From Fundidesulfovibrio terrae (GTDB lineage: Bacteria; Desulfobacterota; Desulfovibrionia; Desulfovibrionales; Desulfovibrionaceae): DNA of 64,000 nucleotides. The notes beneath the pieces were generated by a model. That model saw only the letters and a list, made by a program, of their open reading frames with translations, was not told the origin of the DNA and ran no database searches. The position numbers and the translations under genes are program-made. This document shows positions 6,424-44,601 of the stretch, piece after piece. Positions within the stretch are counted from its first letter, which is position 1. Every line of letters starts with the position of its first letter. Location of the stretch: NCBI RefSeq assembly GCF_022808915.1, contig NZ_JAKZFS010000004.1:62001-126000 (forward strand), given 5' to 3'.

Positions 6424-8127
<1,704 letters not shown>

Positions 8128-8130
8128 GCC

Positions 8131-9438
8131 ATGCGCGAAGTTCTCCAGCATCTCAAGAAGGTTTCCCAGATTTACGGCATCGGCGACCGGCAGTTCACCG
8201 CCATCTCCGACGTGGAGCTGGACATCGGCGAGGGCGAGTTCGTCTCGCTGCTCGGCCCCTCCGGCTGCGGCAAGTCCACGCTTCTGCGCATCATCACCGG
8301 CCTGCAGAAGCCCACCTCCGGCGAGGTGCTCTACCGGGGCGAAGCGCTCAACGGCGTGAACCCCCGTTCGTCCATCATCTTCCAGAGCTTCGCCCTCTAT
8401 CCCTGGCTCACCGTGCAGGAGAACGTCGAGGTGGCCCTCAAGGCGCGCGGCGTCACTCCCAAGCAGCGCGCCCGCCGCGCTCTGGACATGCTCCACCGCG
8501 TGGGCCTGGAGGGCTTCGAGACCGCCTACCCGCGCGAGCTTTCCGGCGGCATGCGCCAGAAGGTGGGTTTCGCTCGCGCCCTGTCCATCGAGCCGGAGCT
8601 TCTGTGCCTGGACGAGCCCTTCTCCGCCCTGGACCCCCTCTCGGCCGAGGCCCTGCGCGGCGAACTCCTGGAACTCTGGACCACGGGGGCCATCCCCACC
8701 AAGAGTCTGCTCATGGTCTCCCACAACATCGAGGAGGCCGTGTTCATGTCCGACCGCATCGTGCTCATGGAAAAGGAGCCCGGGCGCGTGGTGGCTGAAC
8801 TGGCCGTGGACCTGCCCCATCCGAGAAACCGCAAGTCAAAGGAATTCTTGGAAATCGTGGACAAGGTCTTCGCCATCCTGGCCGGCCAGACCCTGCCCGA
8901 GGCCGACGAGCACGGCTCCGCCCCCGGCGCGCCCGGCAAGACCCGCCCGCTGCCGCACATCGTGCTCCCCGACCTCTTCGGCCTGGTGGAGCACATCGAC
9001 TTAAGCCCCGGCAACACCGCCGACATCTACCGCCTGGCCGACGAGTTCCAAATGGAGGTCGATGACGTGCTGCCCCTGGTGGAGACTGCGGAAATCCTGG
9101 GCCTGGCCGTGGTCAGCAAGGGCGACATCGCCCTGACCACCCTGGGCGAGACCTTCGCCGAGGCCTCCATCGCCGCGCGCAAGGAGATCTTCGCCAGCCG
9201 CATCCGCAGGCTGCCGTTCTTCCAGTGGATGCTGGCGCTGCTGCGCAAGTCGGACAGGCAGCAGCTCAAGTGGGACGTGGTCCAGATGGCCCTGGAGCTG
9301 GAATTCCCGCCCCACGAGGCCGAAAAGCAGCTGGAGACCGCCGTCACCTGGGGCCGCTACGCCACGGTGCTGGCCTACGAGGACGACACCGGCATCCTCA
9401 GCCTGGAGCCCGAGGCCGCGCCCGGGAAGGCGGCGTAG
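8131..9438 (+). CDS. ABC transporter ATP-binding protein with C-terminal AAA-associated domain
   Basis: The ATPase partner of the fused permease immediately upstream. Residues 1-255 are a nitrate/sulfonate-type ABC ATPase: Walker A GPSGCGKST near residue 49, signature LSGGMRQK near 138, Walker B LLCLDEPFSALD near 160. Residues from about 270 to 435 form an extra domain (LPDLFGLVEHIDLSPGNTADIYRLA...) of the AAA-associated type found on some such ATPases, probably regulatory. The ATG at 8131 directly follows the permease stop, so the two are co-translated. Substrate cannot be told from sequence. Confidence 0.88.
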   Translation: MREVLQHLKKVSQIYGIGDRQFTAISDVELDIGEGEFVSLLGPSGCGKSTLLRIITGLQKPTSGEVLYRGEALNGVNPRSSIIFQSFALYPWLTVQENVEVALKARGVTPKQRARRALDMLHRVGLEGFETAYPRELSGGMRQKVGFARALSIEPELLCLDEPFSALDPLSAEALRGELLELWTTGAIPTKSLLMVSHNIEEAVFMSDRIVLMEKEPGRVVAELAVDLPHPRNRKSKEFLEIVDKVFAILAGQTLPEADEHGSAPGAPGKTRPLPHIVLPDLFGLVEHIDLSPGNTADIYRLADEFQMEVDDVLPLVETAEILGLAVVSKGDIALTTLGETFAEASIAARKEIFASRIRRLPFFQWMLALLRKSDRQQLKWDVVQMALELEFPPHEAEKQLETAVTWGRYATVLAYEDDTGILSLEPEAAPGKAA

Positions 9439-21175: not shown

Positions 21176-21222
21176 TTGCGCGCAGGCCTGTATCCGTTCT
21201 GTGTCACTGGCAGGATTATTAG

Positions 21223-21241
21223 ATTTAACAGGCTGTTAAAT
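21223..21241. promoter_or_regulatory. Perfect 19-bp palindrome ahead of the acyltransferase gene
   Basis: ATTTAACAG-G-CTGTTAAAT, nine-base arms with one central base, 22 bases before the ATG at 21263. It is a good candidate operator, or a leader hairpin near the ribosome-binding site. Confidence 0.5.
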
Positions 21242-21262
21242 TGTAATTACTGCGAGTATATT

Positions 21263-22489
21263 ATGTCAGAAAGTCACCACTCAGGATCAATGCGAACCCG
21301 ATATGATGTGCTTGATGGAATGCGAGGGATTGCTGCGATAACGGTTATGGTTGCTCATTATCTCCCGAATTCTGATTTAACAATTGAAAATATAAAATTC
21401 GTCACACTTAACAATGCAGGACTTGCGGTTGATTTTTTCTTCATACTTAGTGGATTCGTTATTACGCACTCGTATGGACGCCGACTGTTGAACGGCATGT
21501 CTGTTTGGGAGTATTTGTGCAAGAGAATAATTCGTCTGTATCCAATGTTTTTTGTTGGGCTATTGATTGGTGTTCCGGCCATGATCTATTTTATGAAGAC
21601 CGGCGTTTCAACCTATTCCAATAGAAGTGTCGTCGGGTCATTCGTATATAATTCTGCGTTCATTCCGTTTCTTAGCAGCTCAATGATCCGTTTCATTGGA
21701 GGGAAAGGTGCAATTGTTGGGGAAATATTCCCGGCGAACCCTCCGGCGTGGTCATTGTTTTTTGAGATGGTGGCCAGCATCGCCTTTGTGGCTCTGTTGA
21801 AATACGATAGGAAGATTCTTCTAAGATCGACAGTCGCTTGCTACGCCATGCTTGTGGTTGGCGGCCTGATCTCGTCATTTTCAGATTATGCGCCTTTTTA
21901 TTTGCATCTCGCGTCTGGACCAACCATGGATACGTTTATTGGTGGGTTTCCGCGGGTATTTTATGGGTTTACATGTGGGATTCTGATTTATCAGATTGCT
22001 CGCGATGATCAATGCAGTCGTGTTTTTCGGGATGTGGTTGCTAGACTTATCAGAAGTTCCTATTCATTGTATTTTGTTCTTGTGGCAGTATTTTTGTTTC
22101 CAAGTGAAGTCATGGGGTTATACACGTGTTTTATCTTGGCAGTTGTAGCTCCTTGCCTTGTGCTGGTTGGATCAACAACAAGATGCACGCAACAGGCGGG
22201 GGTGCTATTGGCCAGATTTCTGGGTTGGATTTCATATCCAGTGTATTGTCTTCATTATCCGGTAGGGAGAGCGGTGTTTTCGTTTGGAGACAGGGTCGCC
22301 GTTCCAAGAGAAGTGCTCGTCCTGGTGTCCATAGCTGTCACTTTTATTGCGTCGATAGTTATCGTAAAGTTTCTTGAAGAACCTGTTCGAAGATATCTGT
22401 CCGGTAGGCTCGCAAAGCATGCGTACTTTCTTGAGCGCAATAAGCAGGTGCCATCCGCCCAAAAGGCTGGTGAGCCAGTCAATTTGTGA
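21263..22489 (+). CDS. Acyltransferase 3 (OafA/YrhL-type) membrane protein
   Basis: A 408-residue integral membrane acyltransferase with about ten helices. The family motif is at the N-terminus (DVLDGMRGIAAITVMVAHY, catalytic-type His in VAHY) with FFILSGFVITHSYGRR, and the conserved arginine segment RIIRLYPMF follows. Such enzymes O-acylate cell-surface polysaccharides. Base composition is markedly more AT-rich than neighbours and codon use differs, suggesting recent acquisition. The ATG at 21263 is chosen because the catalytic motif starts soon after. A repeat of the CCAAAGG family follows the stop. Confidence 0.87.
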   Translation: MSESHHSGSMRTRYDVLDGMRGIAAITVMVAHYLPNSDLTIENIKFVTLNNAGLAVDFFFILSGFVITHSYGRRLLNGMSVWEYLCKRIIRLYPMFFVGLLIGVPAMIYFMKTGVSTYSNRSVVGSFVYNSAFIPFLSSSMIRFIGGKGAIVGEIFPANPPAWSLFFEMVASIAFVALLKYDRKILLRSTVACYAMLVVGGLISSFSDYAPFYLHLASGPTMDTFIGGFPRVFYGFTCGILIYQIARDDQCSRVFRDVVARLIRSSYSLYFVLVAVFLFPSEVMGLYTCFILAVVAPCLVLVGSTTRCTQQAGVLLARFLGWISYPVYCLHYPVGRAVFSFGDRVAVPREVLVLVSIAVTFIASIVIVKFLEEPVRRYLSGRLAKHAYFLERNKQVPSAQKAGEPVNL

Positions 22490-24594: not shown

Positions 24595-26577
24595 CTACCC
24601 GAAGAGCTTGTCCTTGCCCTCGATGAGGTCCGTGACCACGCCCGGATCGGCCAGGGTGGAAGTGTCGCCCAACTGGCCGATCTCGCCCTCGGCGATCTTG
24701 CGCAGGATGCGGCGCATGATCTTGCCCGAGCGGGTCTTGGGCAACCCTTGCGCGAACTGGATGACCTCGGGGGTGGCGATGGGGCCGATTTCCGAACGCA
24801 CGTGCTTTTTGAGCGCCGCCAGCAACTCGTCGGAGGCGTCCACGCCCTCCTTCAGGGTGACGTAGGCGTAGATGGCCTGGCCCTTGATGTCGTGGGGCAT
24901 GCCCACCACTGCGGCCTCGGCCACGTCCGGGTGCGCCACCAGGGCGGACTCGATCTCGGCCGTGCCCATGCGGTGGCCGGACACGTTCACCACGTCGTCC
25001 ACGCGGCCCATGATCCAGACGTAGCCGTCAGCGTCCATGCGCGCGCCGTCGCCGGTCTCGTAGACGCCGGGGAAGGCCTCGAAATACTGCTTGCGGTAGC
25101 GCTCCTGGTCGCCCCAGACGCCGCGCAGCATGCCGGGCCAGGCCTGGGTGATCACCAGGAAGCCGCCCTGGCCGCAGCAGACCTCCTTGCCGTCCTTGTC
25201 CACCACCTTGGGGACGATGCCGGGCAGGGGCAGCGAAGCCGAGCCGGGCTTCAAGGGAGTGGCGTAGGGCAGGGGGGAGATCATGAGGCCGCCGGTCTCG
25301 GTCTGCCACCAGGTGTCCACGATGGGCAGTTTCCCCGCGCCGATGTTGTCGTGGTACCACATCCAGGCCTCGGGGTTGATGGGCTCGCCCACGCTGCCCA
25401 GGATGCGAAGCGAGGAGAGATCGTGGTTCTTGGTCCACTTCACGCCTTCGCGCATGAGCGCCCGGATGGCCGTGGGGGCGGTGTAGAAGGTGTTGACCTT
25501 GAACTTTGCCACGGTGGCCCAGAAACGGTCGGGGCCGGGCCAGGTGGGCACGCCCTCGAACATCACCGACGTGGCCCCAAGGGCCAGCGGCCCGTAGACG
25601 ATGTAGCTGTGGCCCGTGACCCAGCCGATGTCGGCGGTACACCAGTGCACGTCCTCTTCCTGGATGTCGAAGACCAGCTGGGTGGTGTGTGCCGCGTAGG
25701 CCAGGTAGCCGCCGGTGGTGTGGAACACGCCCTTGGGCTTGCCGGTGGAGCCGGAGGTGTAGAGGATGAAGAGCACGTCCTCGGAGTCCATGGGCACGGG
25801 GGGGCAGGGGGCCAGCATGTCCGGGTCGGCCATGGCCTCGTGCCACCAGATGTCGCGCTCCTCCACCCAGTCGATCTGGGTGTTCGCGCTGTTGTGCACC
25901 ACCACGCGGGTGACGCTGGGGCATTCCTTGAGGGCCTCGTCCACGTTGTGCTTGAGCCCAATGGCCTTGCCGGCGCGGCGCACGGCGTCGCCGCAGACCA
26001 CCACCTTGGCGTGGCAATCGTTGATGCGGTCGCGCAGGGAGTGGGCCGAGAATCCGGCGAACACGATGGAGTGGGCCGCGCCGATGCGGGCGCAGGCCAG
26101 CATGGCGATGGCCAGCTCCGGCACCATGCCCAGGTACAGTGCCACGCGGTCGCCCTTGTGCACGCCCAGGCTTTTCAGGACGTTGGCGAACTTGCAGACC
26201 TCGTCGTGCAGCATCTGGTAGGTGAGCACGCGCACGTCGTCCGGGCGGTCGCCCTGCCAGATGATGGCCGCCTTGTTGCGGCGGGGGCCGTCCAGGTGGC
26301 GGTCCAGGCAGTTGTAGGCGGCGTTGAGCGTGCCGCCCTGGAACCACTTGAAGGATGCTTTGTCGAAATCGCAGTCCATGACCTTGCCGAAGGGGGAGGC
26401 CCAGGTCAGAAGCTCGCGGGCGCGATCGCCCCAGTAGCCTTCGGGGTCTTCCACGGAGCGTTTGTATACTGCGCGGTACTCTTCGAGGCTTTTAATATGG
26501 GCGCGGGCGTGGTGCGGCCCGACCGGGGGCTGGAAGATGCGGTCTTCGTGGAGCAGGGTTTCGATGTTGTCGGTCAT
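24595..26577 (-). CDS. acs: Acetyl-CoA synthetase
   Basis: A 660-residue AMP-forming acetate-CoA ligase of normal length. AMP-binding P-loop [11 protein letters not shown] near residue 265, WWQTETGG near 413, and the C-terminal [11 protein letters not shown] whose Lys is the acetylation-controlled catalytic residue. It activates acetate scavenged by the ActP transporter encoded upstream on the same strand. The ATG has AAGGAG seven bases ahead. A GTGATA/TATCAC inverted repeat lies 23 bases upstream. A diverged paralogue is at 35610. Confidence 0.95.
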
Positions 26578-26599
26578 GGACGGCTCCTTAACGTGTGAA

Positions 26600-26622
26600 G
26601 TGATATGGTGTCTGTCTATCAC
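26600..26622. promoter_or_regulatory. Inverted repeat upstream of acs
   Basis: Arms GTGATA and TATCAC separated by 11 bases, 23 bases ahead of the acs ATG. Candidate operator; it does not match the Crp/Fnr TGTGA-N6-TCACA spacing. Confidence 0.4.
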
Positions 26623-26695
26623 GAATACATCTGATTCATAGAGTTTTTTAGGCCAGCGGCCGCCAGGGCACGGTGAGCGGTCGCCCGAGACGGCG

Positions 26696-27385
26696 TCAGA
26701 AGAAGGCGGGCTGGGCCGTGGCTCTGGGCTGCGAGGCGGGCGAGGCCAGGCGCAGAACCGTCTGCAGGGTGGGCTCCTCCCCCTGCCGCGAGGAGCGCAG
26801 GATGGACAGGAACCGCTGGAGCACCTGGGCGGTGAGCCAGGCGTCGCCAAGGGCGTTGTGGGCTCCCCGGGGGGAGACCCCCAGCGCTCGGGCCACGCTG
26901 TAGAGGGTGGCGTCCTTGAGCGGCAGTTCGTCCAGCAGGTGCGATCCCCGCCCGCCCCGGATAGCCAGGTACAGCCCCAGGACGTCCAGGCTCCGGTTGG
27001 GGGGGGGAGGGAGCTTCAGCCGCTTGGCCCAGGAGCGCAGGAAAGCCATGTCCAGCTCCACGTGCCAGCCCGTGAGCACCGCGTCGCCGCAGTATTCCAG
27101 GAAGGCGGGCAGGGCCTCCTCGATGGGGGGCTTGTCCTTGAGCTCCGAGGGCGTGAGCAGGTGCACCCGCACGCTCTCGTGTGAAGGGACCTTGCCCGAG
27201 GGGCGCACCAGCATCTCGAACACGCTGCCCAGGTCGATGCGCCCGCCGTGCATCTTCACCGCCCCCATGGACAGGACGGCGTCGCGCGAGGGGTCGAGCC
27301 CGCCGGTCTCCAGGTCGAAGACCACGAACTCCGCGCGTCCTACGGGCTCGTCCGGCTCACGGCCGGACCAGGGCCACCATTTCAT
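26696..27385 (-). CDS. DnaQ-like 3'-5' exonuclease
   Basis: A 229-residue DEDDh exonuclease of the Pol III epsilon type. Acidic residues D24 and E26 in FDLETGG, D112 in VELDMAF, H176 and D181 in AHNALGDAW form the complete catalytic set. It lacks a polymerase-binding region typical of true epsilon and probably is a stand-alone nuclease. Its start overlaps the 3' end of the upstream gene by 29 bases, so it is co-translated with the CBS/nucleotidyltransferase pair and ActP. This linkage of exonuclease, DUF294-type protein and acetate transporter recurs in other proteobacteria without an agreed role. Confidence 0.9.
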
Positions 27386-35609: not shown

Positions 35610-37538
35610 ATGGAAACCGGTCTCGTCGATAGCTTGCTCAGGGAGGAGCGCGTCTTCCGCCCCCTGCCCCAGGTGGTGCGCGAGGCCAACATGGGCCAGC
35701 CCGAGCTCAAGGCCGCCCAGGCCCTGGCCGAGGCTGACTACCGCCTGTTCTGGGAAGAGCAGGCCTCCGACCTGGACTGGTTCGAGAAGTGGGAGCATGT
35801 GCTCGACGAGTCCAACCCGCCCTTCTACAAGTGGTTCCTGGGCGGCAAGTGCAACCTGGTCCACAACGCCCTGGACCGCCACATCCTCACCGCCAACAAG
35901 AACAAGCTGGCCATCGTCTGGGAAGGCGAGTCCGGCGAGTGCCGCAAATACACGTATTACGAGCTCTTCCGCGAGGTCTGCCGCTTCGCCAACGCCCTGC
36001 GGGCCATGGGCGTGGGCAAGGGCGACCGCATCCTCATCTATCTGCCGCCCCTGCCCGAGACCATCATCTCCATGCTGGCCGCGGCCAAGATCGGCGCGGT
36101 GCAGACCCTGGTGTTCGCCGGGTACTCTGCCCGGTCGCTTCGCGAACGCATCGAGAGCTGCCAACCCAAGATCATCGTCACCGCCGACGGCTTCTACCGC
36201 AACGGCCGGGTCATCAACCTGAAGTCCGTGGTGGACGAGGCCCTGTTCGGCCAGGACGGCGACTGCGTGCAGAGCGTCATCGTGGTGCACCGGGCGGGTG
36301 TGGAGCTGGACATGGTGGAGCCCCGCGACCTGCGCTACGAGGACCTCCTGCGCCAGGAGCGGCCCCAGTCCCCCACCGAGGTCATGGACGCCGAGGACCC
36401 GCTTTTCCTGCTCTACACCTCCGGGGCCACGGGCAAGCCCAAGGGACTTCTGCACACCCACGGCGGCTACATGGTGGGCGTGCACGCCACCTACCGCTGG
36501 GTCATGGACGTGAAACCCACGGACCTCTACCTGTGCACCGCCGACCCCGGCTGGATCACAGGCCACAGTTACGTGGTGTTCGGCCCCCTCATGGCCGGGA
36601 CCACCGTGGTGCTCTACGAGGGCCACCCGCTCTACCCGCAGGCGGACCGGCTCTGGGCCATCGTGGCCCGCTACGGCGTGACCATCCTCTACACCACGCC
36701 CACGCTGATTCGCATGCTCATGCGCTACGGCGGCCAGTATCCCAAGAAGCACGACCTCTCGACGCTCAGGTTGCTTGGCAGCGTGGGCGAGCCCATCGGC
36801 CCCGAGCCCTGGGTGTGGTTCCACAAGTACATCGGGCGCAGCGAATGCCCCCTGCTGGACACCTGGTGGCAGACCGAGACCGGCATGTTCATGGTGTCGC
36901 CGCTGCCCATCTCGCTTCTGAAGCCCGGTTCGGCCGGGCGGCCCCTGCCCGGCGTGGACGTGGACGTGGTGGACCGCAACGGCAACCCCGCCGGCCCCGA
37001 CAAGGGCGGCTTCGTGGTGGTGAGAAAGCCTTGGCCGGCCATGGCCCGCACGCTCTTCGGCGACGACGAGGGCTACAGGAAAGCGTACTGGGAGAAGATC
37101 CCGGGCGTGTACTTCGCGGGCGACGTGGCCAGAAAGGACGAGGACGGCTACTTCTGGTTCCAGGGCCGGGCTGACGACGTGCTGAACATCGGCGGGCACC
37201 GCATCGGCCCGGCCGAGGTGGAGGCGGCGCTGGTGGCGCATAAGGCCGTGGCCGAGGCCGCGGTGATCGGCGTGCCGGACGCCATCAAGGGCGAGGCGGC
37301 CAAGTGTTTCGTGGTGCGCCGCGAGGGCTGGGAAAAGGACTTCGACAGCGAGGTCGAGCTGATCAAGGCCCTGACCACCCATGTGAAGCGGGAACTCGGG
37401 CCGTTCGTGGACATCAAGGCCATCGCTTTCCGGGAGAAGCTGCCCCACACCAAGAGCGGCAAGATTTTGAGAAGGCTTTTGAAGGCCGAAGAGACGGGAT
37501 CAGCGCCCGGGGATTTGTCGAGTTTGGAAGAGGAGTAG
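35610..37538 (+). CDS. Acetyl-CoA synthetase-like AMP-forming acyl-CoA ligase
   Basis: A 642-residue paralogue of Acs. AMP-binding motif YTSGATGKPKG near residue 270, WWQTETG near 418, and PHTKSGKILRR near the C-terminus with the catalytic Lys. The N-terminal half is clearly diverged from the acs at 24595 (for example FLGGKCNLVHNALDRH). It may prefer acetate or another short acid such as propionate. It has its own leader and follows the LytTR gene. No transporter is adjacent. Confidence 0.9.
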   Translation: METGLVDSLLREERVFRPLPQVVREANMGQPELKAAQALAEADYRLFWEEQASDLDWFEKWEHVLDESNPPFYKWFLGGKCNLVHNALDRHILTANKNKLAIVWEGESGECRKYTYYELFREVCRFANALRAMGVGKGDRILIYLPPLPETIISMLAAAKIGAVQTLVFAGYSARSLRERIESCQPKIIVTADGFYRNGRVINLKSVVDEALFGQDGDCVQSVIVVHRAGVELDMVEPRDLRYEDLLRQERPQSPTEVMDAEDPLFLLYTSGATGKPKGLLHTHGGYMVGVHATYRWVMDVKPTDLYLCTADPGWITGHSYVVFGPLMAGTTVVLYEGHPLYPQADRLWAIVARYGVTILYTTPTLIRMLMRYGGQYPKKHDLSTLRLLGSVGEPIGPEPWVWFHKYIGRSECPLLDTWWQTETGMFMVSPLPISLLKPGSAGRPLPGVDVDVVDRNGNPAGPDKGGFVVVRKPWPAMARTLFGDDEGYRKAYWEKIPGVYFAGDVARKDEDGYFWFQGRADDVLNIGGHRIGPAEVEAALVAHKAVAEAAVIGVPDAIKGEAAKCFVVRREGWEKDFDSEVELIKALTTHVKRELGPFVDIKAIAFREKLPHTKSGKILRRLLKAEETGSAPGDLSSLEEE

Positions 37539-39145: not shown

Positions 39146-39297
39146 TCTCAAATCACCCGCGCCTCTCCCAAGAAAAATCATCCTTCCCGCTCAAAGTTTC
39201 CCGCTTTATCGCCCCCGCGATAGTCCTCTTCCCCTCCCCGGGCTAGACCGCCACCATCCAAAAGCCGCATCCGCGCGGCGCATCCAGGAGGTGGCGC

Positions 39298-40854
39298 ATG
39301 GCCAACGGGTCGGTTGAGACCGTAAACGTATGCAGGGGAGGGCTCGGAACCTACATTTCCGAGAACCTCACCCTGTGCGGGCAGAGCGCCCGCGTGGCCT
39401 GGGCCGGGTACGCCGCGGCGTGGGGCCTGTTCTTCCTCATCAACTGCGTCCTACCGCTGCCCGAGGGTCTCAAGCCCGAGGGCATGTCCGTGCTGGCCAT
39501 CCTCCTGTGGGCTTCGGTCATGTGGGTCACCGAGGCCATGCCCGTGGGCATCACCGGCATATCCATACCCACGCTCCTGGTGCTCACCAGGGCCATCCCC
39601 TGGAACGGCGCCAACCCTCCCATGGGCCAGGTGTTCTCGGGCTTCACCACCCACGAGGTGTGGCTGTGCCTGTTCGCCTTCTTCGCCGGGGCCATCATCC
39701 AGCTCCTGAACATGGACAAGCGCATTGCCTTGGCCATTCTGGACAAGATCAAGGCCTCGAGCGTCGGGCGCATCATCTGGGGCATGTTCTGGGTCAACGT
39801 GGTGCTGGCCTTTCTGATCCCGGCGGCCAACGCCCGCGCGGCCACGGTGATGCCCGTGGTGCAGGGCATCACCAACCTGCTGGGCGACACCCCCCGCGAG
39901 CGCGAGGCCAAGAAGGCCATCGTGATCCAGTCCATGGTCTACGCCAGCATGATCTCGGGCATCTTCATCCTCACCGGCCACATGCCCAACCTGATCATGA
40001 CCGGCCTCTTCGAGAAGAGCGGCTTCAAGAACCTGGGCTACTTCAACTGGATGCTCCTGCACGCGCCCTACATCCTGATGTTCGCCATGACCCATTGGTG
40101 GGTGCGCTTCCACTTCAAGACGGGCGGCGTGGTCATCGCGGGCGGCCATGAGCAGATCAGGCGCAAGCACAAGGAGCTGGGCCCCATGACCCGGCCCGAG
40201 TGGGCCATGCTGGCGGCCTTCGTGCTGGTCGGCGTGCTGTTCATGACCGGCAAGGGAAGCCCCGTTGTGCTGCACAACTACCAGCTGGGCATCGTGGGGC
40301 TTATCGGCATTATGATCCTCTTCATCCCGGGGCTCTTCCCCTTCAAGTGGAAGGCCGTGCAGGACCGCACCATCTGGGGCACCTTCCTGCTGCTCGGCGG
40401 TGCCATCACCATGACCGACGCCATGAGCAAGTCCGGACTGGCCTCCTGGATGGCGGACCACATCCACCACATGGTGGAGGGCATGGGCTGGTGGCAGACT
40501 CTCCTGGTGATGATGCTGGGCACGCAGGTGCTGCGCATCGGCATGCTCTCCAACGTGGCGGCCGTGGCCATGCTGGCTCCCATCGTGTTCGCCATGGGCC
40601 CCAAGGTGGGGCTGCATCCGGTGGCCTTTACGCTGCTCATCTGCAACGTGGACACCTTCGCCTACCTCCTGCCCACGCAGATCACGGCGGCGGTCATTGC
40701 CTACGGCACCAATACTTTCTCCACGGCGGACTACGCCCGCTCCGGCTGGGTGTGCATCCTCATGGCCATCGCCTTCGGCATCTGCGTCATGGCCCCGTGG
40801 TACGCCATGCTCGGCCTGCCCGTGTGGAACCCGGCCGCTCCCTGGCCCTACTAG
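39298..40854 (+). CDS. DASS-family (SLC13-type) anion transporter
   Basis: A 518-residue inner-membrane protein with about 12-14 helices of the divalent anion:sodium symporter family. Two pseudo-symmetric signature loops are visible: IPAANARAATVMPVV near residue 178 and LSNVAAVAMLAPIV near 420. The usual SNT in the first is replaced by AANAR, which resembles the TPSNTARAGG loop of dicarboxylate exchangers (SodiT/DiT group) more than Na+/succinate symporters. AGGAGG precedes the ATG. The AprA-like flavoprotein gene starts 59 bases after its stop, so it probably brings in that enzyme's substrate or exchanges substrate for product. Confidence 0.88.
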   Translation: MANGSVETVNVCRGGLGTYISENLTLCGQSARVAWAGYAAAWGLFFLINCVLPLPEGLKPEGMSVLAILLWASVMWVTEAMPVGITGISIPTLLVLTRAIPWNGANPPMGQVFSGFTTHEVWLCLFAFFAGAIIQLLNMDKRIALAILDKIKASSVGRIIWGMFWVNVVLAFLIPAANARAATVMPVVQGITNLLGDTPREREAKKAIVIQSMVYASMISGIFILTGHMPNLIMTGLFEKSGFKNLGYFNWMLLHAPYILMFAMTHWWVRFHFKTGGVVIAGGHEQIRRKHKELGPMTRPEWAMLAAFVLVGVLFMTGKGSPVVLHNYQLGIVGLIGIMILFIPGLFPFKWKAVQDRTIWGTFLLLGGAITMTDAMSKSGLASWMADHIHHMVEGMGWWQTLLVMMLGTQVLRIGMLSNVAAVAMLAPIVFAMGPKVGLHPVAFTLLICNVDTFAYLLPTQITAAVIAYGTNTFSTADYARSGWVCILMAIAFGICVMAPWYAMLGLPVWNPAAPWPY

Positions 40855-40913
40855 AATCCGGCAACAGCCCGCAACACATACGCTTTCACAGACGATACAG
40901 GAGGAGAACCCAC

Positions 40914-42671
40914 ATGCCCCGCATGGCCCAAAACCCCCCAAGCCTGGACGCGGTCGAGACCGTCCGGGTGGACTGCGACATCCTCATCATCGGCGGCGGC
41001 AACGCCGGATGCTTCTCGGCCGTGGAGGCCGCCAAGATCGACCCCTCCCTCAAGGTGGTCATCATGGAAAAGGCCCAGATCATGCGTTCCGGCGCGTGCT
41101 CGGCGGGCATGGACGCCATCAACACCTACATCCCCGAGGGCAAGACCCCCGAAGATCTCGTCAGGTGGTGCCGCTCCCAGGTGGGCGGCGGGCCCATCCG
41201 GGAAGACCTGGCCTTGTCCAATGCGAAGGAGCTGAACGAATCCGTGGACGACCTGGAGCGCTGGGGCCTGCCCATCCTGCGCGACGAGAACGGCAAGATC
41301 CGCTACCGGGGCGCCTGGGACATCTCCATCCACGGCGAGCAGTTGAAGCCCATCATGGCCGAGAAAGCCATCGAGGCCGGGGCCGAGGTGTACAACCGCG
41401 TGGCCTGCACCCAGCTCTTGATGGACAACGGCCGCTGCGCGGGGGCGCTGGGCTTCGGGGTTCGCGACGGCAAATTCTACGTGTTCCGGGCCAAGGCCAC
41501 CATCAACGCCACGGGCGGCGCGGCCGGGCTCTACAAGAGCTACACCGCCGACGCCACGGACAGCCACCACCAGATCTGGATGTGCCCCTACTGCGTGGGC
41601 ACGGGATATGCGGTCGGAATCCGCCAGGGCGCGGAGATGACCTCCATGGAGCAGCGCTGGGTGGCCACGCGCACCAAGGACTTCTGCGGACCCGTGGACA
41701 CCATCTCGGTGGGCTACAAGGCGCCCATAATAAACGCCAAGGGCGAGCGCATCATGCAGAAGCGCTATGCCCACCTGGGCGCGGACAAGGCTCCGCGCTA
41801 CATCCGGGCCAACGCCCCCATGGAGGAGTGGCTGGCCGGACGCGGCCCCACCTACTGCGACACGCGCGGCATGAAGCCCGAGCTGGCCGAGCAGATGATG
41901 ACCGACTACCTGAACGAGCGCCCGAGTTTCGTGTTGTTTCTGGCCAGCCGGGGGCAGGACCCGGTCAAGGAGCCCATCGAGATCTACGGCTCCGACCCCT
42001 ACATCGTGGGCGGGCACACCCAGTCCGGCTTCTGGGTGGACCTTGACCGCATGACCACCGTCCCGGGCCTGTTCGCGGCCGGCGAGACCGCGGGCGGCAA
42101 CCCCAACAAGTTCGTTGGCGGGTGCGCGGCCGAGGGCAAGCTGGCCCTGCGCGGAGCGGCGGACTACATCAAGAATCTCGTCCTGCCCGAGCCGGACGCC
42201 GCCCAGGTGGCCGCCGAGAAGGCCCGGGTGTTCGAACCGCTCTTGCGCGGCGAGGACTTCGACGGCCTCAAGGCCCTGGAGATGGAAGAGCGACTGCAGC
42301 GCCTCATGGACGAATACGCCGGCGGCACCAGCCAGTTCTACCGCACCAACGAGGAACGGCTGGACTATGCGCTCAAGCACCTGACCATGCTGCGCGAGCA
42401 GACGAAGTACCTGAAGGCCGCCGACCTGCACGACCTCATGAGCGTGCACGAGGTCATCGACCGCATCGACGTGGCCGAGGTGCTCTGCCACCACCTGAAG
42501 TTCCGCAAGGAGACCCGCTGGCAGGGCTGGCAGACCCGCTCGGACTACCCCGAGGTGGATCCGGCCTATGATTGCCACGTGGAGAGCCGCCGGAATCTCG
42601 AGACAGGCGAGATCGAGACTTTCACCCGCCCCTACGAGCAGCTCGTGCCGGGCGACCGGTACAAGCCCTAA
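40914..42671 (+). CDS. AprA-like flavoprotein (adenylylsulfate reductase alpha family)
   Basis: A 585-residue FAD enzyme of the fumarate reductase/AprA superfamily. Rossmann motif ILIIGGGNAGCFSAVEAAK near residue 21; AprA-like stretches follow (MRSGACSAGMDAINTYIPEG, ATINATGGAAGLYK, GRGPTYCDT, MTTVPGLFAAGETAGG, and the C-terminal LKAADLHDLMSVHEVIDR and FRKETRW). The family Arg region is kept as RTKDFCGPV. It is about 70 residues shorter than sulfate-reduction AprA and differs where AprA has SGHKFSSGSHAEG (here GGNPNKFVGGCAAEG). With the ferredoxin gene 12 bases on it forms an AprBA-like pair. The substrate is unknown; APS is doubtful. Confidence 0.87.
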   Translation: MPRMAQNPPSLDAVETVRVDCDILIIGGGNAGCFSAVEAAKIDPSLKVVIMEKAQIMRSGACSAGMDAINTYIPEGKTPEDLVRWCRSQVGGGPIREDLALSNAKELNESVDDLERWGLPILRDENGKIRYRGAWDISIHGEQLKPIMAEKAIEAGAEVYNRVACTQLLMDNGRCAGALGFGVRDGKFYVFRAKATINATGGAAGLYKSYTADATDSHHQIWMCPYCVGTGYAVGIRQGAEMTSMEQRWVATRTKDFCGPVDTISVGYKAPIINAKGERIMQKRYAHLGADKAPRYIRANAPMEEWLAGRGPTYCDTRGMKPELAEQMMTDYLNERPSFVLFLASRGQDPVKEPIEIYGSDPYIVGGHTQSGFWVDLDRMTTVPGLFAAGETAGGNPNKFVGGCAAEGKLALRGAADYIKNLVLPEPDAAQVAAEKARVFEPLLRGEDFDGLKALEMEERLQRLMDEYAGGTSQFYRTNEERLDYALKHLTMLREQTKYLKAADLHDLMSVHEVIDRIDVAEVLCHHLKFRKETRWQGWQTRSDYPEVDPAYDCHVESRRNLETGEIETFTRPYEQLVPGDRYKP

Positions 42672-42683
42672 AAGGAGGACGCC

Positions 42684-43013
42684 ATGCCGCCCATTATCGA
42701 CCCCAAGAAATGCAACGGCTGCGAAGGCCGCGAAGAATCGTTCTGCGAGGAGGCCTGCCCGGGCGACCTCATGTACGTGGGCGCGGACGGCAAGTCCCAC
42801 TGCCACGCCAGCCGCGACTGCTGGGACTGCATGTCCTGCGTGAAGATGTGCCCGCGTAACGCCATAGAAACGCGCGTGCCGTACCAGCTGGGCTACCACA
42901 AGGCCACGCTCAAGCCCCTCATGGGCAAGAACAGCATCACCTGGAAGTGTACGGACATAAACGGCCAGACCGTCACCTACAAGTACCGCAACCGCCTGGA
43001 TATCAAGGATTGA
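42684..43013 (+). CDS. AprB-like two-cluster ferredoxin subunit
   Basis: A 109-residue protein with eight Cys in two [4Fe-4S] motifs of the AprB pattern: CNGCEGREESFCEEACP (first, with the AprB-like insertion) and CWDCMSCVKMCP (second). The following MGKNSITWKC... matches AprB's beta segment, but the protein stops there (RNRLDIKD), lacking the ~40-60-residue tail that wraps round AprA in sulfate-reducing enzymes. It should pass electrons to or from the flavoprotein encoded just upstream. AGGAGG-type site precedes the ATG. Confidence 0.88.
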   Translation: MPPIIDPKKCNGCEGREESFCEEACPGDLMYVGADGKSHCHASRDCWDCMSCVKMCPRNAIETRVPYQLGYHKATLKPLMGKNSITWKCTDINGQTVTYKYRNRLDIKD

Positions 43014-43192
43014 GGCCGCGAGGCGGCGGGACGGACGCGTCACGGCGCCTTTCTTCGCGCAGCCGGGCAGGGCCGCGGACATGCCTCGCGGTCCCGTTGC
43101 TGGAGCCGGGCTCCGGCAATGACGGAACAACGACCCGCTGGCGGGGGACGCGAGTTGCTCGCGCAAACCTCCGCCCGGGCCATGCCCCGGCC

Positions 43193-43220
43193 TTGACCTT
43201 GGCCGGGGCGGGCCTATGTT
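43193..43220 (+). promoter_or_regulatory. Sigma-70-like promoter of the Crp/Fnr gene
   Basis: TTGACC (43193-43198), 16-base spacer, TATGTT (43215-43220). Transcription would begin near 43227, right at the first ATG. A GC hairpin (CCCCGGCC/GGCCGGGG, 43185-43208) overlaps it. Confidence 0.5.
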
Positions 43221-43226
43221 GCGGGC

Positions 43227-43934
43227 ATGTCTTCGCATGGAACCCAGATGGACTGGCACCTGATCAAGGGCGGCTTCTTCGACGGCCTGGAGCGCGAGTT
43301 CGCGGCCTTCCGCGTTGTCGCGGACAAGCGGCGCATCAAGAAGAACGAGATCGTGTTCTTCGAGAACGACCTGTGCGACCGCTCCTTCTACCTGGACCAG
43401 GGCTCGGTGAAGATTTTCCGGGTGTCCCTGCACGGCAAGGAGCCCACCTTCTTCATCCGCTCGCCGGGCGAGATGTTCGGGCTGGCCGAGGTGGTGGGCG
43501 GGGAGCGCCGCAAGGCCTCCGCCCAGGCCCTGACGGATTGCGCGCTGCTGGAGGTGGCCCGCGACGATTTCCTCACGCTCATGCTCGAGCATCCCCTGCT
43601 GGCCCGGCGGGTGATCGAGGTGCTGGGCAAGCGCATCCGGTATCTCAGCGAGCAGTTGGAGAACGTGATGACCTGCGGCGTGGGCACGAGGCTCCTGAAG
43701 CTCCTGCTGTGCCTCTCCCACGACGAGATCGCCCAGGCCAGGGGCGGCCCGGTGGACGTGCCCGTGCGCCTCACCCAGGGACAGATCGCGGCCATGACCG
43801 GCTCCTGCCAGCAGACCGTGAGCGAGACCCTGGCGGCCTTCGAGCAGCGCGGGCTCATAAGCGTATCGCGGCGCAGCATACGGCTTCTGGACCCAGGGGC
43901 CATCGTGGACGCCCTGTCCGAGCCGGAATCCTGA
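43227..43934 (+). CDS. Crp/Fnr-family transcription regulator
   Basis: A 235-residue regulator: cyclic-nucleotide-like sensor domain (residues 20-140; FYLDQGSVKIFRVSLHGKE, SPGEMFGLAEVVGG) and a C-terminal winged helix (VRLTQGQIAAMTGSCQQTVSETLAAFEQRGLI). It lacks the N-terminal Cys cluster of oxygen-sensing Fnr; Cys at 'CDRSFY' and 'MTCGVG' are unlikely cluster ligands. It lies 213 bases after the AprB-like gene on the same strand and may control the transporter-reductase genes. If transcription starts near 43227 the mRNA would be leaderless, or the ATG at 43248, preceded by GGAA, is used. Confidence 0.85.
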   Translation: MSSHGTQMDWHLIKGGFFDGLEREFAAFRVVADKRRIKKNEIVFFENDLCDRSFYLDQGSVKIFRVSLHGKEPTFFIRSPGEMFGLAEVVGGERRKASAQALTDCALLEVARDDFLTLMLEHPLLARRVIEVLGKRIRYLSEQLENVMTCGVGTRLLKLLLCLSHDEIAQARGGPVDVPVRLTQGQIAAMTGSCQQTVSETLAAFEQRGLISVSRRSIRLLDPGAIVDALSEPES

Positions 43935-44025: not shown

Positions 44026-44601
44026 ATGCATACCCACGACGAATCACGCAAATCCCACGAGGAGCTCCAGGCCGAAGTGGAACGCCTGCGCAGGGAAGTG
44101 ACCCACCTGGAGGCGGCCCAGTTGGCCAGGCGCAGGGTGCAGGCCCTGCTCACGTCCGAGCGGGACTCGTTCCGCGAGGCCTTTGACGGCTCCTCCGTTC
44201 CCCAGGTGTGGCTCGACCGGAGCGGGCGCGTACTGCGCCTCAACAGGGTCGCGCAGGCCATGCTCGGGGTGGACATCCCCCCCAGCGACTTCACCGTTTT
44301 CAACGATCCCCAGCTCATCATGCTGGGCGTCCCCCCGTATTTCGAGCGGGCCCTTTCGGGCGAGACGGTCCGCGTTCCCGCCCACGTCTTCAACCCGGCC
44401 AGGACCCATTACAGTGCTCCCGACGTGGATTTGACGGTGGAAACCGTGCTGTATCCGCTCGCGGGCGACGTAAGCGGCCAGGCCACCGTGGTGGTGCAGT
44501 TCTTCGACGTCAGCGCCCTTGCCGCCGCAGAAGCCGAGGTCCGGCAGTTGCGCGACGAACTCTCGCGGATGAAAGCCGCCCCGCACGACACGGACCGTTA
44601 A
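44026..44601 (+). CDS. PAS-domain protein flanked by coiled coils
   Basis: A 191-residue soluble protein: an N-terminal coiled coil (ELQAEVERLRREVTHLEAAQ), a PAS domain (~45-165; VPQVWLDRSGRVLRLNRVAQAML) and a short C-terminal coiled coil. No kinase, cyclase or DNA-binding output. It is probably a sensor that acts on a partner protein. It starts about 90 bases after the Crp/Fnr gene. Confidence 0.78.
   Translation: MHTHDESRKSHEELQAEVERLRREVTHLEAAQLARRRVQALLTSERDSFREAFDGSSVPQVWLDRSGRVLRLNRVAQAMLGVDIPPSDFTVFNDPQLIMLGVPPYFERALSGETVRVPAHVFNPARTHYSAPDVDLTVETVLYPLAGDVSGQATVVVQFFDVSALAAAEAEVRQLRDELSRMKAAPHDTDR

Follow-up and report, generated by a model that had tools for sequence, protein, structure and literature searches.

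A self-contained cassette of an importer and a probable reductase in Fundidesulfovibrio terrae with a flavoprotein of a separate APS-reductase-like clade

The DNA analysed here is a 64-kb window of contig 4 (C4) of the 3.9-Mb genome of Fundidesulfovibrio terrae (positions are given in window numbering), and its subject is a cassette on the plus strand in which a DASS transporter, an AprA-like flavoprotein, an AprB-like ferredoxin and a Crp/Fnr regulator follow one another. By sequence comparison the flavoprotein is a member of a clade, labelled W, that lies outside dissimilatory AprA and also outside the clade of assimilatory reductases of adenosine 5′-phosphosulfate (APS) and 3′-phosphoadenosine 5′-phosphosulfate (PAPS), together termed (P)APS reductases. 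Many sulfate- and sulfite-reducing bacteria carry such a self-contained combination of a switch, an importer and an APS-reductase look-alike, the last of which probably acts reductively on another imported compound. Tentatively, the enzyme may be seen as dedicated to the two-electron reduction of a dianion that the cell imports, possibly a sulfonate or a sulfur oxyanion, which would yield sulfite for DsrAB. A preliminary description made from the sequence alone had placed the four genes consecutively on one strand, which the coordinates of the open reading frames in the window bear out. Ribosome-binding sites precede the first three genes (Table 1), and in the flavoprotein frame, which is open from 40200, the ATG at 40914 is the start with a Shine-Dalgarno sequence.

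Importer, regulator and operator in the clade W loci

The survey of the cassette comprised 57 non-redundant W loci, 50 of them with at least 1.5 kb of upstream sequence (L and G numbers denote the loci and genomes compared; W, C, I and Z are clade or group labels). An importer adjoins the flavoprotein in 49 of these 50 loci, L078 being the exception, and since the genome of F. terrae has only four DASS genes the pairing of DASS transporter and flavoprotein is not a matter of chance. A homologue of the CRP-type regulator was found in 45 of the 50 loci, in an interval that reaches from 5.5 kb ahead of the flavoprotein start to 8.5 kb past it. Transporter, flavoprotein, ferredoxin and regulator, which had been proposed to form one module, do occur together elsewhere. 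Other genes recur less often, namely an HdrA-type gene in 15 of the 50 loci, in several of them with NarI-type, HdrB-like or HdrC-like partners, a gene for a PhnD-like binding protein in six non-redundant loci, and Flx-like, NAD(P)H-side genes in L048 and L062.

Over the 50 loci the importers were assigned to DASS in 25, to TTT in 16 and to TauE in six, with three unassigned; two of the latter carry TauE (L046 according to Pfam, L063 according to the first clustering), which raises TauE to eight. The names TctA, TctB and TctC, TauE, HdrA2-like with FlpD, HdrC- and HdrB-like, and NarI-Fer4 were given from single cluster members (Pfam, NCBIfam). As three carrier families occur, a deduction of the substrate from the carrier was dropped. 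The transporter in the window itself passes TIGR00785 (204.6 bits, cut-off 198.6) and has NaDC3, VcINDY and the plastid DiT2.1 as structural relatives. Its AANAR loop had been likened to that of dicarboxylate exchangers, and there is indeed a resemblance to the plastid dicarboxylate transporter 2.1 (PSTTARAGG; 67.4 bits over 46-507), but the Na+-coupled VcINDY scores about equally (68.0 bits), and the likeness is therefore suggestive only.

When the upstream regions of 41 operons were searched for palindromes, with two half-site lengths and seven gaps for each length, TATCG-N6-CGATA was revealed in front of 24 of them, compared to at most one in ten shuffles. In 39 of the 57 loci the relaxed pattern TATC[GA]-N6-[TC]GATA lies no more than 300 bp 5′ of a gene of the operon (47 sites, 5 elsewhere), as opposed to a mean of 0.13 and a maximum of one locus in shuffled sequences and no site with the reversed control; six of the 14 loci without an operator have less than 1.5 kb of upstream sequence. 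The operator precedes operons of all three importer types, and the site in the window is both the sole relaxed-pattern match there and the sole exact copy in the genome of F. terrae. It is presumably bound by the Crp/Fnr regulator of the cassette. Among 48 exact sites in 25 genomes, 20 (in 19 genomes) could be assigned by coordinates to W operons; further regulon genes did not emerge above chance in these genomes, the remaining 28 sites comparing with 25 sites of a control pattern. An N-terminal cysteine cluster of the Fnr type was not found in the regulator, the first cysteine of which is residue 50.

Table 1. Features of the cassette in the 64-kb window
Feature	Position	Strand	Remarks
Operator TATCG-CCCCCG-CGATA	39207-39222		75 bp 5′ of the DASS start; putative Crp/Fnr binding site
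DASS (SLC13) anion transporter, 518 aa	39298-40854	+	TIGR00785 over cut-off, PF00939
AprA-like flavin adenine dinucleotide (FAD) flavoprotein, 585 aa, clade W	40914-42671	+	Shine-Dalgarno start, tree, structure matches
AprB-like ferredoxin, 109 aa, two 4-Cys cluster motifs (8-Cys motif)	42684-43013	+	PF00037, PF12838
Crp/Fnr-family regulator, 235 aa	43227-43934	+	PF00027 and PF13545 over cut-off

Phylogeny and active site of the flavoprotein

With respect to its overall build, the flavoprotein retains the AprA scaffold as described earlier. It passes the model NF005331 'adenylyl-sulfate reductase alpha' (593.8 bits, cut-off 557), and a Foldseek search with its AlphaFold model (29-row alignment; predicted local distance difference test score 86.4, predicted template modelling score 0.90) ranked 8a8o, the PAPS reductase of Methanothermococcus thermolithotrophicus (MtPAPSR), first, then AprA and then succinate and fumarate enzymes; the model is weak at 211-221, 250-258 and 360-362, close to where the active site presumably lies. 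MtPAPSR is also the nearest sequence relative in the PDB (504.5 bits), followed by the AprA of Archaeoglobus fulgidus (342.5 bits), and the ferredoxin matches the beta subunits of 8a8o and 1jnr. Both subunits score below the cut-offs of the dissimilatory models, with 388.7 bits against TIGR02061 aprA (cut-off 641.75) and 73.9 bits against TIGR02060 aprB (cut-off 135.65). As had also been stated, the flavoprotein is shorter than AprA: its 585 residues compare with a 679-aa frame for the canonical AprA on contig 2 (C2) of the same genome, to which it is 37% identical.

A tree of 62 rows (29 from W, 11 canonical AprA sequences forming C, 15 from I including MtPAPSR, and seven from Z as outgroup) resolves W as a third clade with a support of 100/99, each of the four groups being split off by a branch of at least 100/98, and places it outside C plus I (99/95). 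A constraint uniting W with C is disfavoured (p-AU, the p-value of the approximately unbiased test, 0.0215), so that the phylogeny, which had been proposed as a check, does not put the protein inside canonical AprA; with the cut-off of TIGR02061 missed as well, identity with canonical AprA was ruled out. A constraint uniting W with I is not rejected (p-AU 0.0615) although W is separate in the tree, where long branches occur in two I rows and an odd composition in six rows. Membership in the MtPAPSR-type PAPS reductases was judged improbable because the loop and the neighbouring genes do not fit, though the tree test alone does not reject it.

The residues were compared in 69 distinct W sequences, which besides the window flavoprotein's own copy are 68-94% identical to it (A. 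fulgidus AprA numbering). Asn74, Trp234, Arg265 and Arg317 of AprA are kept in all 69, and His398 in 68 with an X in the remaining one; Asn74, Arg265, His398 and Trp234 we take to be the catalytic set of AprA that presumably holds the sulfonate group. Equally invariant (69/69) are the W-specific Arg141, Asp145, Ser147, Met235 and Arg314, while position 144 is Trp in 67 and Phe in two sequences and Val278 is found in 68. Dissimilatory AprBA shares with W the fold, the FAD site, these five AprA residues and a two-cluster ferredoxin, but has Met147, Tyr235, either Thr or Ala at 314 and, in 11 of 11 canonical rows, Gln145; W is moreover shorter and comes with a carrier and a regulator of its own. 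The I rows have Arg144 with Ser or Asn145, and again Thr or Ala at 314. According to the preliminary description the difference from AprA lay in the segment holding the SGSHAEG motif. The GSHSG of A. fulgidus AprA does read GGHTQ in the window flavoprotein, but the catalytic histidine is retained, and the bigger differences are found at 141-147 and 314, with Gln145 to Asp, Met147 to Ser and the extra Arg314 as the telling changes.

MtPAPSR, in turn, resembles W more than any other structure in sequence and fold, and has a similar length, the same catalytic residues and a small ferredoxin subunit. However, it belongs to the I clade, and its loop Lys120-Arg121-Ser122 is replaced by Ala-Trp-Asp in the window flavoprotein (Trp or Phe followed by Asp at 144-145 in all 69 sequences); neither an APS kinase nor a PAP phosphatase was found among the W neighbours scanned. 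PMC10322725 connects the MtPAPSR loop 104-123 with PAPS, and Gln145 of AprA with APS. Judged from its residues, W bears neither the APS nor the PAPS signature, yet retains the putative sulfonate-holding set. In an alignment-only comparison, Arg314 lines up with the arginine in the ASRD motif of the FrdA of F. terrae, presumably the catalytic arginine (R287 of E. coli FrdA). The histidine that binds FAD covalently in fumarate reductase and that of HPTG are both replaced, the window flavoprotein having RSGACSAGM and RWVATR as opposed to the motifs RSHSSAAQG and QFHPTG of its own genome's FrdA.

Sulfate activation, distribution and the substrate question

Within the class, 63 of 348 genomes gave a match of at most 1e-100, 60 of them at 71% identity or more and three at 40-41%; in a sample of the phylum 138 of 395 genomes matched at 1e-60 or better, many through AprA-length frames, and nine matches of at least 70% identity lie outside the class. 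A scan of named genomes yielded 44 loci, some cut by contig ends, from Desulfovibrio, Solidesulfovibrio, Fundidesulfovibrio, Nitratidesulfovibrio, Bilophila (including Candidatus Bilophila faecipullorum, L064), Mailhella, Desulfobacteraceae, Desulfomonile, Desulfarculus and others. A search of plasmids found no W member at 60% identity or above; a small Klebsiella plasmid record (hit H2, NZ_CP061967.1), possibly an odd assembly, contains a 36% identical AprA-like stretch. Some Desulfovibrionaceae (G157, G156 and G332) have up to 15 matches to the AprA model per genome, one of those in G332 being near a DASS-like gene.

Neither sulfate adenylyltransferase (Sat), as had been remarked, nor canonical AprA is encoded in the window: both reside on C2 (C2:221979 and C2:236551, respectively), which also bears on the earlier question whether the genome has a canonical aprBA. 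HdrA-like genes that are probably qmoAB follow the canonical AprA there (L142), no family search for Qmo having been made. Amongst the 69 W genomes, canonical AprA was found over cut-off in 60 and Sat in 61, and a comparison of coordinates shows that in none of the latter is there a Sat match less than 40 kb away from the W flavoprotein. CysD, CysN and CysC were absent from the 20 W-neighbour proteins scanned, other neighbours being unscanned. Six W genomes (G068, G070, G071, G242, G332 and G340) yielded neither Sat nor canonical AprA, and CysN only below the cut-off, so that APS made by the cell itself is an unlikely substrate there; in a control, G183, CysN is present beside its I-clade gene. 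Three others (G324 with Sat fragments, G434 and G653) have no AprA over cut-off yet have a Sat match. The argument from the six genomes rests mainly on G071 (98% complete) and G332 (99%; a single contig of 2,172,708 bases). DsrA was found over cut-off in 63 of the 69 W genomes and as fragments in four more, and was absent from G097 and G340 (63 and 62% complete); it is present in nine of nine W genomes outside the class, compared to 188 of the 395 genomes sampled from the phylum.

The simplest account of the importers, the retained residues, the Hdr/Qmo-like genes and the association with DsrA is that an anion comes in, two electrons are delivered and the product goes to DsrAB. Under the tentative view of a dedicated two-electron reductase, the dianion would enter via the DASS carrier under local regulation, and electrons from a Qmo/Hdr-type donor would pass through the ferredoxin, with its two [4Fe-4S] clusters, to the FAD of the AprBA-like enzyme, where the reduction would take place in the cytoplasm. 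Asn74, Arg265, His398 and Trp234 would hold an SO3-type group, be it of a sulfonate or of a sulfur oxyanion, and the leaving group would be protonated, perhaps by Arg314, whereupon sulfite could pass to DsrAB. The HdrA-type electron-transfer gene in 15 loci fits a role as reductase; the reductive direction, the sulfur substrate, the sulfite product and the part of Arg314 are what we infer from these observations. One variant, a speculative idea of rather low probability, is a flavin-dependent reductive desulfonase that would act on an imported sulfo-carboxylate such as one of the sulfoacetate or the sulfosuccinate type: N5 of FADH- would attack the sulfur, Arg314 would protonate the carbanion in the manner of fumarate reductase, and sulfite would again go to DsrAB. 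The earlier proposal of an imported anion other than APS gains partial support from the separate clade and from the persistence of the module in the six genomes that yielded neither Sat nor canonical AprA nor CysN over cut-off; the identity of the substrate and the product exchange are conjectural, as is a role in respiration rather than detoxification.

Several observations weigh against this tentative view. TTT carriers are best known for carboxylates; 35 of the 50 loci have no adjoining HdrA-type gene; Sat is present in most W genomes, and four of the six Sat-less genomes are merely 62-83% complete. The association with DsrA is partly one of ancestry, the nine genomes outside the class coming from six families, and Arg314, given its alignment with the arginine of fumarate reductase, might suit the reduction of a C=C bond as well. 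G332 is probably Taurinivorans muris LT0009, and the proteome result for this species, if it concerns the W copy, would make three of the substrate candidates poor ones there.

A doubtful alternative is a fumarate-reductase-like enzyme that acts on the C=C bond of an unsaturated di- or tricarboxylate, or of a sulfo-carboxylate, after its import, with the importer exchanging substrate for reduced product. In its favour, Arg314 is invariant in W and aligned with the FrdA arginine, and DASS and TTT are mostly known as carboxylate carriers, TctCBA also adjoining the flavoproteins of the Z group; the plastid-exchanger likeness of the DASS loop points the same way. However, the two fumarate reductase histidines are replaced, Asn74, Arg265, His398 and Trp234 are kept although needless for C=C reduction, and the nearest folds are PAPS and APS reductases; the retention of the AprA residue set thus favours a sulfonate or sulfur oxyanion, with Arg314 pulling the other way. 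Unlikely, too, is a paralog of APS reductase, or a (P)APS reductase of altered affinity, for which DASS and its substitutes would import sulfate and a Sat encoded elsewhere would make APS, even if it is a live rival in the 61 genomes with Sat. The pass with NF005331 and the retained catalytic and adenine-side residues agree with it, and Asp145 might fit a free ribose hydroxyl. Furthermore, on plasmid pILYOP02 of the fusobacterium Ilyobacter polytropus (L208, 6964-13733) DASS, cysC, an AprA-like gene, a ferredoxin gene, cysD and a gene for a GTP-binding protein form an operon, a compact gene set for sulfate assimilation with an AprA-like reductase (43.9% identical and outside the tree sampling) at its core, so that a DASS transporter beside an AprA-like enzyme can mean plain sulfate assimilation. 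What opposes it is Asp at position 145 in all W sequences instead of Gln, the distance of Sat, the lack of CysD, CysN and CysC in the scanned neighbours as compared to the CysD and CysN of a sister-clade locus, the six genomes already named, and TctABC, for which we know of no role as a sulfate importer.

The growth of Bilophila was raised by 10 mM APS in the section of PMC11610557 concerned, which would suit an APS reductase and equally the use of APS imported from neighbours, as proposed there for Bilophila living with Bacteroides; that section describes no mutant. Residues of W could bind a nucleotide; against import from neighbours speaks that the cassette occurs in metagenome-assembled genomes from groundwater and lakes too. 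With no DASS, TTT or TauE carrier that to our knowledge moves nucleotides, uptake of APS or PAPS is most improbable. The oxidative direction, i.e. the removal of sulfite or another reduced anion with export of the product by the carrier, is likewise improbable. TauE/SafE, named a sulfite exporter, is present in eight of the 50 loci, but TTT systems are binding-protein-dependent importers, and the Flx-like genes in L048 and L062 point to electron input. As to the chemistry, dissimilatory APS reductase is described as reversible in the part of PMC10322725 concerned, where the reverse reaction of MtPAPSR could not be measured.

Related cassettes and implications

Similar arrangements exist outside W. 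The (P)APS reductase cassettes of the I clade, which acts as the control group, also have a flavoprotein and a ferredoxin beside a transporter, but the two such loci scanned differ from the W neighbours in carrying sulfate-type ABC transporter genes with CysD and CysN (L131) or cysteine-synthase-like, HcyBio and ThiF genes of a cysteine/homocysteine type (L126), members of these clusters being present in other I loci as well. L122 and L129-L133, with AprA-like reductases beside ABC transporter genes, are assimilatory and lie inside the Desulfobacterota. The Z group (PRK08275-type) likewise combines a flavoprotein with a mini-ferredoxin and a TctCBA or ABC carrier, but forms a deep branch in which Arg265 is absent from all seven rows and Asn74 and His398 are present in three each. 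To it belong L138-L140, where a flavoprotein of about 552 aa and a 65-aa ferredoxin lie behind TctC-TctB-TctA-like genes as a second TTT-reductase cassette on another branch. PRK08275-type flavoproteins with a ferredoxin are also found on plasmids of aerobes and rhizobia (L209, L210, L211 and L216-L218), mostly next to a HEAT-repeat protein and often to nitrate/sulfonate-type ABC genes. A link to AsfA/AsfB of arylsulfonate desulfonation, which as relatives would have hinted at sulfonates, was dropped: the megaplasmid of Cupriavidus metallidurans (presumed AsfA, Rmet_4334, its place guessed), though part of the collection searched, was not among the 51 records matching the PRK08275 protein at 1e-80, and tblastn against three 50-kb stretches of this megaplasmid chosen by guess, plus a 5-kb one, gave nothing better than E 0.02.

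Around the cassette, a PAS-domain protein (44026-44601) lies directly 3′ of the regulator and, among the loci searched by tblastn, adjoins it only in F. terrae and in L012 of the same genus. The window further contains two acetyl-CoA-synthetase-like AMP-binding enzymes (24595-26850 on the minus strand and 35610-37538 on the plus strand), the latter ending 1.8 kb 5′ of the cassette and not being kept beside it in the loci searched, as well as an ABC permease and, behind it, an ATPase bearing a C-terminal AAA-associated domain (6424-9438). Between 20001 and 22000 the G + C content falls to 56%, compared to 61-73% elsewhere, and an acyltransferase gene (21176-22489) is located there.

Searches of the literature returned no paper title naming clade W or the cassette. 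Two gut studies, on T. muris and on Bilophila wadsworthia, report in the parts concerned an 'AprAB' pair without Sat in taurine-respiring bacteria (PMC10507020; PMC11610557); for T. muris, QmoAB and an absence of growth on sulfate are given as well (PMC10507020), and the copy in its probable genome, G332, falls in clade W. A passage of PMC8667426, on the other hand, has B. wadsworthia without AprAB. Probable members of clade W are reported as AprAB in these two gut studies.

A pair that is named APS reductase by a public model, and probably in two papers, is likely to be a different enzyme. Surveys that infer sulfate respiration from 'AprAB' may be misled, since W spans sulfate and sulfite reducers including the gut genera Desulfovibrio, Bilophila, Mailhella and probably Taurinivorans. 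Should sulfite be released from an imported compound, this would be a route to sulfide that was not found described in the literature searched, and the desulfonase variant, if true, would amount to an oxygen-free and radical-free cleavage of C-S bonds. With its regulator, an operator that occurs once in the genome of F. terrae and the swapping of importers, the cassette makes the question of the substrate directly testable.

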